Shown piece after piece: positions 59,766-61,979 of a stretch of DNA of 64,000 nucleotides. The position numbers and the translations under genes were made by a program. This DNA is from Subtercola endophyticus (GTDB taxonomy: Bacteria > Actinomycetota > Actinomycetes > Actinomycetales > Microbacteriaceae), in NCBI RefSeq assembly GCF_021044565.1, contig NZ_CP087997.1, positions 3,410,001 through 3,474,000 on the forward strand, written 5' to 3'. Position 1 is the first letter of the stretch. Each line of letters begins with the position of its first letter. Below the pieces are notes generated by a model. It worked only from the letters and a program-made list of their open reading frames with translations, did no database searches and had not been told where the DNA came from.

Positions 59766-59979
59766 GACTGAACCCTCCTGTGTGCGGGCAGTGCCCACTC
59801 GGCATGGTCTATCTGCCTCAGCCTAGGCATGCCGCCTGGTAGAGGCCAGAGGCGCAATGGTGTCGAGCAGGCCAACACCGCTTGAACACACGAATGAGGC
59901 TCGGTGCGCGTCGAGGGCGATTGAAGAGAACATCGAACATATGTACTGGGTATCTGCTTGGGTGAAGTAACCTTTGAGT

Positions 59980-60933
59980 ATGGCTGAACATTCGGGCCCG
60001 TTGCCTGGTGTGGACTATCCAGGAACATTTCCTGAATTCCAGGAGTGGTTCTCGACCGAGCGGGGTTGTTTTGATTTCCTCGCTGGTTTGCGGTGGCCGG
60101 GTGGGTTCGTGTGCCCGAAGTGCGATGCGACTAAGTTTTGGCGCACGGGCGACGGGTTGTGGATGTGTCGGGTCTGTCAGCGGCGCACGTCGGTGACGGC
60201 GGGCACGCTCTTTGATCGCACTCGTACGCCGTTGCAGACCTGGTTCGCTGCGGCGTGGTTCATCACGGCGCAGAAGAACGGGGTCTCGGCTCTCGGGTTG
60301 CAGCGGGTGTTGGGGTTGAAGTCGTATGAGACGGCGTGGGCGTGGATGCATAAGTTCCGGCGTGCGATGGTGATCCCGGGCCGTGATGTACTCACGGGCA
60401 CGGTCGAGGTCGATGAGACCTTCGTCGGCGGCATCAGCCGCGGCAACGCGGGCCGTTCCTCGTCCAAGCTCGGTGTGATGGTTGCCGCGGAAATGCTCGG
60501 CCCCAGAAAACTCGGCCGAATCCGGTTGGAGCCGACACTGAAAGAACCGCTCGCGCTCGTCACGTTCGCCACGCGTACCGTCGAGCCGGGGTCGAGGATC
60601 AAAACGGACGGCGCGAGAGAGTTACGCCGGCTGTCGGGGCTGGGCTATCAGCATGATTACTACACGCAGCTCGGTGGTACGAAACCTGCGCATGTTGACC
60701 TGCCCGGGGTGCATATCGTTGCGTCGTTGTTGAAGCGTTGGTTGCAGGGAACACTGCAATATGGGGCATCCTCTGATCACCTCGCGTACTACCTGGACGA
60801 GTTCACATTCCGCTTCAACCGGCGTTCCGCGAAAAACAGGGGCCTGCTGTTCTACCGGCTGATGAGCCAGGCGGTGAACACCGAACCCCACCCGCTGCCC
60901 AGCCTCGTTAGCGATCAACCCCTCTGGGAGTGA
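59980..60933 (+). CDS. IS1595-family transposase
   Basis: A 317-residue transposase. The N-terminal zinc-binding domain has FVCPKCDATKFW and WMCRVCQRRTS (two CxxC pairs). The DDE/N-type domain has GTVEVDETFVGG (first D), RIKTDGARELRR (second D) and late DHLAYYLDEFTFRFNRR, matching the IS1595 layout. The frame is intact. ATG at 59980 is used; 59974 is two codons earlier. Confidence 0.93.
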   Translation: MAEHSGPLPGVDYPGTFPEFQEWFSTERGCFDFLAGLRWPGGFVCPKCDATKFWRTGDGLWMCRVCQRRTSVTAGTLFDRTRTPLQTWFAAAWFITAQKNGVSALGLQRVLGLKSYETAWAWMHKFRRAMVIPGRDVLTGTVEVDETFVGGISRGNAGRSSSKLGVMVAAEMLGPRKLGRIRLEPTLKEPLALVTFATRTVEPGSRIKTDGARELRRLSGLGYQHDYYTQLGGTKPAHVDLPGVHIVASLLKRWLQGTLQYGASSDHLAYYLDEFTFRFNRRSAKNRGLLFYRLMSQAVNTEPHPLPSLVSDQPLWE

Positions 60934-60950
60934 ATCGAGCGATGCACTCG

Positions 60951-61247
60951 CTACATTCGGCGGTGCCCATTCATGACGCGAAGTACAACCCTGGCCAACG
61001 TCCACGCTGCAACAGGGATTGCAATGGCAAAAGGAAGCCCGAAGGTGATCGCAGCTTGGATATCACTCTTCATGGCAGAGTCCGGTAGAAAGTGCACAAC
61101 AACTGAGAAGATCAATACGGGCGTGAAGACCCACCAGAATGCCGATCGCGACCGATGGAGAATTCGATACCAGCGATCTCGTCCAGCCGCCCTTGACACC
61201 GCCGACTTTTTTGCATCCTCAATCGCAGAAGATCGCCAAGCATTCAT
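60951..61247 (-). CDS. IS1595 passenger: small two-TM membrane protein
   Basis: A 98-residue protein inside the element, between the transposase stop and the right end, on the opposite strand. A charged N-terminus (AWRSSAIEDAKKSAVSRAAGRDRWYRIL) is followed by two TM helices (AFWWVFTPVLIFSVVVHFL and AITFGLPFAIAIPVAAWTLA) and a basic C-terminus. It matches no family I recognise. IS1595 elements are known to carry passenger genes, so it is likely real, but no function can be given. Confidence 0.65.
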   Translation of the reverse strand: MNAWRSSAIEDAKKSAVSRAAGRDRWYRILHRSRSAFWWVFTPVLIFSVVVHFLPDSAMKSDIQAAITFGLPFAIAIPVAAWTLARVVLRVMNGHRRM

Positions 61248-61325
61248 TGCTTCATCATAGTTGAGTGATTATCATTACGTTTGCTTCACCTAAGCAGATA
61301 CCCAGTACATATGTTCGAAACTCGC

Positions 61326-61331
61326 TAGAGT
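61326..61331 (+). promoter_or_regulatory. alkB -10 element and remnant SOS half-site
   Basis: TAGAGT lies seven bases before the alkB ATG, with no clear Shine-Dalgarno, so a leaderless message is likely. GTTCGA (61313-61318) just upstream is the right half of a LexA-type box. Its left half TCGAAC is at 59933-59938, on the far side of the IS1595 element. Confidence 0.55.
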
Positions 61332-61337
61332 CGGAGT

Positions 61338-61979
61338 ATGAATCTCGCGTATCAAATGTCGTTGTTCGACGAACCCGGCGCCGCGCCAGAACTGCAACCT
61401 CTCGGCGGCACGGTCGAACGGGTCGAGCTCGGTGAAGGAGCGTGGCTCGACGTGCGGCCCGGCTGGGTGACCAACTCCGACGAACTGTTCGAGCGCCTCG
61501 CGTTGCAGGTGCCGTGGAAGGCAGATGCGCGGCCGATGTACGACAAGGTGGTTGCTGTGCCGCGACTGGTTTCGTGGTTCGGCCCGCGCGACTCGTTTCC
61601 TGACGGTCTGCTCGATCGTGCGCAAGACGATCTCAACGACCACTATGGTCGCCCGAAAGACCAGGTCTTCGAAACCGCGGGGCTGTGTTTCTACCGCACG
61701 GGAGACGACAGCGTCGCCTGGCACGGCGACCGGGTCGGCAGACTGATCGACCGCGACACCATGGTGGCGATCGTCTCGGTGGGAGCCGAGCGAACTCTCT
61801 CGCTTCGGCCGAAGGGCGGGGGTGAGGTGCGCCGGTTCGTGGTGAGCCACGGTGACCTGGTGGTGATGGGCGGCAGCTGCCAGCGCACGCACGAGCACGC
61901 GATTCTGAAGACCAAGCAGGCGGTGGGTCCGCGCATCAGCATTCAGTTCCGGCCGCACTGGAAGCGCCTCGGCGCGTAG
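61338..61979 (+). CDS. alkB: AlkB-type alpha-ketoglutarate-dependent dioxygenase
   Basis: A 213-residue Fe(II)/2-oxoglutarate dioxygenase that reverses N-alkyl damage in DNA and RNA. The iron triad is HxD in SVAWHGDRVGRL (about residues 129-131) and the distal His in RTHEHAILKT. The 2-oxoglutarate arginine and base-contacting segment is GPRISIQFRPHW. It starts near LFDEPGAAPELQPL. An IS1595 element ends 31 bp upstream and splits an SOS-type box there, so its damage control has probably changed. Confidence 0.93.
   Translation: MNLAYQMSLFDEPGAAPELQPLGGTVERVELGEGAWLDVRPGWVTNSDELFERLALQVPWKADARPMYDKVVAVPRLVSWFGPRDSFPDGLLDRAQDDLNDHYGRPKDQVFETAGLCFYRTGDDSVAWHGDRVGRLIDRDTMVAIVSVGAERTLSLRPKGGGEVRRFVVSHGDLVVMGGSCQRTHEHAILKTKQAVGPRISIQFRPHWKRLGA

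Follow-up and report, generated by a model that had tools for sequence, protein, structure and literature searches.

The window analysed here is a 64,000-nucleotide stretch of the Subtercola endophyticus genome (contig NZ_CP087997.1, positions 3,410,001 to 3,474,000), in which an insertion sequence (IS) of the IS1595 family lies directly upstream of a gene for an AlkB-type dioxygenase, alkB. A preliminary description made from the letters alone held that the element sits in a perfect LexA-type palindrome in front of alkB, and the ends of the element, its 8-bp target duplication and the rejoined site all confirm this. The features of the locus, in window coordinates, are given below.

59933..59944, unstranded: left remnant of the LexA-type operator, TCGA plus the duplicated centre (from the sequence)
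59937..59944, unstranded: left copy of the 8-bp target duplication, ACATATGT
59945..61306, plus strand: IS1595-family insertion sequence, 1362 bp (from its repeats, duplication and transposase family)
59945..59967, plus strand: left terminal inverted repeat (from the sequence)
59974..60933, plus strand: transposase, 319 residues, starting at TTG 59974 or the in-frame ATG 59980 (zinc ribbon plus DDE_Tnp_IS1595)
60951..61247, minus strand: possible passenger open reading frame (ORF) in the 3' part of the IS, 98 residues, membrane-like by eye
61284..61306, minus strand: right terminal inverted repeat (from the sequence)
61307..61314, unstranded: right copy of the 8-bp target duplication, ACATATGT
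61307..61318, unstranded: right remnant of the LexA-type operator, the duplicated centre plus TCGA (from the sequence)
61326..61331, plus strand: putative alkB -10 element, TAGAGT, 7 bases past the box (from comparison with relatives)
61338..61979, plus strand: alkB-type 2-oxoglutarate (2OG)-Fe(II) dioxygenase, 213 residues (2OG-FeII_Oxy_2 profile and PDB relatives)

When the outer bases are rejoined with one copy of the duplication, the result is TCGAACATATGTTCGA, which has no mismatch at the 12 defined positions of TCGAAC-N4-GTTCGA. The two terminal inverted repeats are identical at 22 of 23 bases. The transposase scores 73.4 bits against PF12762 (cut-off 27), 45.5 bits against PF12760 (cut-off 25.4) and 167.6 bits against NF033547 (cut-off 75). 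The element belongs to the IS1595 family, with which it shares the N-terminal zinc ribbon and DDE_Tnp_IS1595 catalytic domain, 8-bp duplications and inverted repeats; some copies in the family carry extra genes. Groups described within the family include IS1016, ISPna2, ISH4, IS1595, ISSod11, ISNwi and ISNha5 (PMC8101967). The transposase frame is open, and D147, D212 and E276, invariant across seven aligned sequences, are taken as the predicted catalytic triad. Profile searches returned no family match for the 98-residue ORF. The 4.32-Mb single-contig genome holds one full copy of the element and no second; it also holds one distant partial relative (31% identity) and, away from any LexA box, a lone end with the same terminal repeat.

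The product of alkB is a 2OG-FeII_Oxy_2 protein whose PDB relatives include AlkBH2 and AlkBH3; an NCBIfam search assigned it no name. A search of the genus recovered 10 alkB copies from 9 of 12 genomes, and the palindrome that the preliminary description required of close relatives is there. The box is unbroken in eight copies, starting 35 bases before the ATG (no mismatch of 12 in L003 and L011; one in L004, L006, L009 and L010; two in L005 and L008), and in the other two it is split by an IS at the same place. The nearest relative, L003 (AlkB 98% identical), has an uninterrupted site with alignable flanks and a single base changed in the spacer, CAGATG for CATATG. In the relatives too, the box is followed by a TAG-type hexamer, at much the same spacing. 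Matches with three mismatches are common in the window (78 versus 38.9 expected from shuffles). The alkB box is more than chance because perfect copies are rare, with two intact ones in the window's genome, and because sites within one mismatch number 62 genome-wide versus 9 for the pattern read backwards. In Streptomyces venezuelae, the LexA motif from chromatin immunoprecipitation sequencing is tCGAAC-N4-GNNCGa, and alkB is listed in the core regulon (PMC9380542). Consensus fit, conservation in relatives and the motif before lexA in the genus (below) support the assignment of the alkB box as a LexA-type operator. Two further boxes were noted: a perfect one (G000:C1:3407730-3407745, L013) 2.3 kb before the window with no obvious gene, and a one-mismatch box (629319-629334, L026) just before an ORF that resembles a DUF222 protein by eye.

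These comparisons show that the insertion split the predicted LexA-type operator of alkB. The 8-bp staggered strand transfer of the transposase was symmetrical about the operator dyad, making the duplicated 8 bp the centre of the operator. Each junction retains one half-site; LexA binding would be weakened or abolished and alkB left derepressed, its putative -10 and downstream operator half in place. At a 16-bp spacing, the -35 window of alkB reads AGTACA after the insertion and CGAACA before it, which are equally poor with respect to TTGACA, and the putative -10 and the last 12 operator bases remain at the gene. Because the -10 is kept and the -35 window is no worse than before, a silent alkB is not favored, and constitutive expression is expected. 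No outward -35 was seen by eye in the right end of the IS, where no promoter scan was run.

The preliminary description also asked whether this IS prefers such palindromes. Relatives were retrieved by transposase similarity, and each locus was given an L-number. Hits came from 10 of 398 genomes of the window's family, 16 of 396 of its order and 4 of 399 of the order of Caballeronia; to these were added the best 80 of 330 from a named-genome search, eight genomes reached through loci, and 13 regions fetched from plasmid searches that returned 14 and 15 records. Element ends were called ab initio from inverted repeats and duplications, blind to the target. Duplicates, copies with a missing end or an unequal duplication, and end pairs more than 5000 bp apart were excluded before counting. 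The 55 distinct insertions kept were assigned to groups according to which of seven query transposases matched best, with 275,000 random 16-mers from the same loci as background. The copies L146-L150 of ISCsp2 share one flank with L151 and were scored as the single insertion L151. L056, a first-group member on the same contig as L044, comes from a record titled as an Acidobacteria metagenome-assembled genome (MAG), which a genome search places in the window's family.

For the lineage of the window element, the answer is yes. In the first group, whose best query is the window element or L067, 21 of 26 targets lie within three mismatches of 12 to TCGAACN4GTTCGA and 16 of 26 within one; random 16-mers do so at 0.10% and 0.00036%, respectively. 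In the second group, whose best query is L078, 7 of 8 targets lie within one mismatch of 8 to CTGTN8ACAG, versus a background of 0.019%. None of the 21 targets in the other groups (L075, L083, L106, L112) fits either motif. The register is constant, with strand transfer 4 bases to each side of the operator dyad and one half-site kept per junction. The same place in the alkB operator was hit in two species by two IS lineages, with transposases 68% identical and elements of 1362 and 4066 bp. Copies with one end or an unequal duplication add TCGAAC halves at L041, L047, L066, L069, L086 and L189 (in the last, read at the outer ends of an array) and CTGT/ACAG halves at L073, L098, L103 and L152. 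L064 fits by eye, its duplication being unequal in one base. The targets of L068, L076 and L192 were unreadable. Taking the targeting of LexA operators by this IS1595 lineage together with the split alkB operator, by whichever route the site is found, we regard the claim as very probably correct.

Some of these elements lie in nested or tandem arrays (L044, 4662-5832; L187; L189; L193), and the L044 array includes a 150-bp element that has the same ends and duplication and no transposase gene. At L152, on an Achromobacter pestifer plasmid, CTGT and ACAG halves flank an element whose duplications are unequal and which lies next to an SRAP gene, a layout that recombination between two copies could have produced. 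A search of viral contigs gave 38 stretches that matched a pattern and, by tblastn, no relative. The Enterobacter element was sought in E. coli genomes, where no record contained 80% of the query; of 112 records, the 10 that were listed had matches to the ISPpu12 flank alone.

The target of each clade follows the LexA of its hosts. TCGAACN4GTTTNN occurs upstream of lexA in all 12 genus genomes, with two or three mismatches of 12 to the consensus, and LexA of the window's genus is predicted to use a TCGAAC-type motif. Eight tested hosts of actinobacterial elements outside the genus likewise carry TCGAAC-type sites upstream of lexA, with one to three mismatches. E. coli, like most beta- and gammaproteobacteria, is described as having CTGT-N8-ACAG for its LexA box (PMC3108266). 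This motif precedes lexA itself in three of the four second-group hosts tested (Massilia, Duganella and G909). Second-group hosts also include a gammaproteobacterial plasmid (L153). As judged from these upstream regions, each clade's target is the LexA motif of its hosts: TCGA-AC-N4-GT-TCGA in Actinobacteria and CTGT-N8-ACAG in the mostly betaproteobacterial clade. A transposase tree of 90 rows, 36 without a known target, was built by a quick search with support from the Shimodaira-Hasegawa-like approximate likelihood ratio test (SH-aLRT) only. All 22 rows labelled A fall inside a 30-row clade (support 100), and all nine labelled B inside a 10-row clade (support 99). The two operator-hitting clades stand apart, and a clade of 17 rows that lacks LexA targets joins the first at a support of only 88. 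The tree accommodates both two origins of operator targeting and a single origin followed by loss in between.

Several observations weigh against operator targeting. Five of the 26 first-group targets miss: L051, L054 and L187 with five mismatches, the nested L089 with eight and L129 with nine. In the second group, one of eight misses, L119, from a Candidatus Aegiribacteria MAG. The one-ended copies L057, L079, L087 and L102 have no half-sites. A search with the repeat only (6 of 396 genomes) gave three new ends, L237, L238 and L239, none of which fits; L237 is in the window's own genome. Arthrobacter or Sinomonas account for 8 of 12 first-group misses, and other copies in these genera fit (L055, L058, L154). 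The L044 target was read by the pipeline against a nested second element. The L153 target, a one-mismatch CTGT/ACAG box, lies inside the transposase gene of another IS, where a LexA operator is unexpected, and Caballeronia, the host of L078, has no CTGT box within 320 bp of lexA. A class-wide search meant as a fresh test reached three genomes besides the window's, two of which repeated contigs already in the survey (L063, L117); its sole new locus, L247, fits with a TCGAAC half at one of its ends only.

As to how the element locates its site, we favor guidance by the LexA-operator complex, at roughly an even call, because the target motif changes with the host LexA motif; that the transposase reads the operator directly has almost the same likelihood. 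The insertion contexts point the same way as the motif switch, since the DNA around insertions is richer in AT than that around the motif's other copies in the same loci (flank GC 0.613, n = 21, versus 0.694, n = 22; p = 6e-5). This contrast is weaker in the window's genome, where the first 15 of the 62 near-boxes have a mean flank GC of 0.641 versus 0.666 for the window, and the AT-rich contexts could reflect survivor bias or selection. The position of the cut, where LexA itself would sit, and the L153 near-box inside another IS gene count against guidance. In its full form, the proposal is that the transposase uses operator-bound LexA as a landing signal, that the motif follows LexA between phyla, and that sister lineages may use another dyad-binding host protein; the whole falls slightly below an even chance. 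If it is correct, insertion would be linked to DNA damage in the host cell, and every new copy would leave one SOS gene permanently switched on.

Alternatively, the transposase may read the operator itself without LexA, which might even block the site until SOS cleavage, each clade having evolved to its own LexA box. This is a serious possibility, though we would not back it outright. Strand transfer inside the half-sites that LexA would cover counts in its favor, as does the L153 insertion into a one-mismatch box that is unlikely to be a LexA operator. Yet direct reading requires that the LexA box of the appropriate phylum became the target twice independently, and no shared reading element was seen: only one transposase position, H262, is common to the two clades and rare outside them. 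Within the same loci, insertions also avoid motif copies that are GC-rich, although selection could do the same.

A general preference for palindromes, with LexA boxes hit simply for being palindromic, is very unlikely. Targets of other groups (L077, L092, L109, L112, L116) are palindromic at all four arm positions, but targets within the first and second groups share the letters of the LexA motif and not symmetry alone, even though the motif base frequencies were derived from fitting sites only and overstate that sharing. Moreover, L081 and L153, each one mismatch from CTGT/ACAG, have 3 of 8 palindromic pairs, and 0.8% of random 16-mers reach 6. More improbable still is random insertion followed by survival of copies that derepress a useful SOS gene; SOS-type genes do often adjoin the sites, but any break of an operator or promoter would then suffice, yet one exact register at the dyad recurs in two phyla. 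That the alkB box was hit once by accident, with nothing more to it, is a reading that the single full copy in the window's genome might suggest; it is scarcely credible, given that the same place was hit in a second species and given the targets of the surveyed relatives.

Tn7, Tn5053 (at res sites) and the IS30 family (at palindromes) are likewise elements that insert into a defined kind of site. No such site-seeking transposon is known to use the operator of a host repressor. In the literature searched, a scope that left most subscription papers and ISfinder outside, no host repressor operator was found as an IS target, and no paper was found that treats insertion sequences, IS1595 and LexA together. 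The IS1595 family is already known; a LexA operator as its target appears to be new. Phage GIL01 is also a LexA-controlled mobile element, but there the operator is not the landing site. Integron integrases likewise join LexA boxes to mobile DNA, but LexA regulates the element, whereas here the operator would be where the element lands (PMC3108266). ISApl4, of the IS1016 type, differs in that its 8-bp repeats, as reported, are mostly A/T-rich and its sites both coding and non-coding (PMC12561309). ISCsp2, a plasmid annotation name for members of the second clade, has a transposase 52% identical to that of the window. Among its plasmid copies, only that of Diaphorobacter sp. MNS-0 combines both ends with an exact duplication, and this copy lies in TACTGT-N8-ACAGTA. 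ISCsp2 differs from the window element in operator motif and host phylum. One paper mentions ISCsp2, solely as lying next to a catabolic cluster (PMC8406286). Through its choice of target, an IS lineage drawn to operators of the SOS master repressor would link transposition to the DNA-damage response. Each insertion should release one SOS gene, such as alkB, the mutagenic polymerase gene dnaE2 or imuA', from control, and such released genes could give rise to repair or mutator variants. Because the motif switches between phyla, the way in which a transposase finds an operator can be put to a direct test.

Thirty chosen neighboring ORFs were submitted to Pfam. The alkB gene adjoins the insertions in the window and at L040. 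dnaE2 adjoins L073, with its start about 24 bases from the duplication, and L184, as an N-terminal piece; imuA' adjoins L189, and SRAP adjoins L152. An HNH protein just below the cut-off was found at L080, DUF1905 at L044 and DUF4007 at L098. Nothing SOS-like was detected among the chosen ORFs at L042, L053, L059, L060, L062, L063, L070, L074 and others. DUF222 proteins adjoin L043, L045, L066, L067 and L124, and also L187, whose target is a miss. We take the 13E12-repeat genes to be of the DUF222 type. In M. tuberculosis, 13E12-repeat genes are placed in the LexA regulon (PMC5005354).

The sister group of L106 and L112 may land on Xer/dif-like sites, which offers a lead toward XerC/XerD; among its members are L112, L116, L109, L155 and L049. 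Against E. coli dif, the L112 target matches at 22 of 28 bases and that of L116 at 16 of 28, with the other seven targets of the group scoring 8-14; in 5400 background tries, the best match averages 10.5 and never exceeds 17. TTATGC occurs in the same register in four of the nine targets of the group (L049, L112, L116 and L155).
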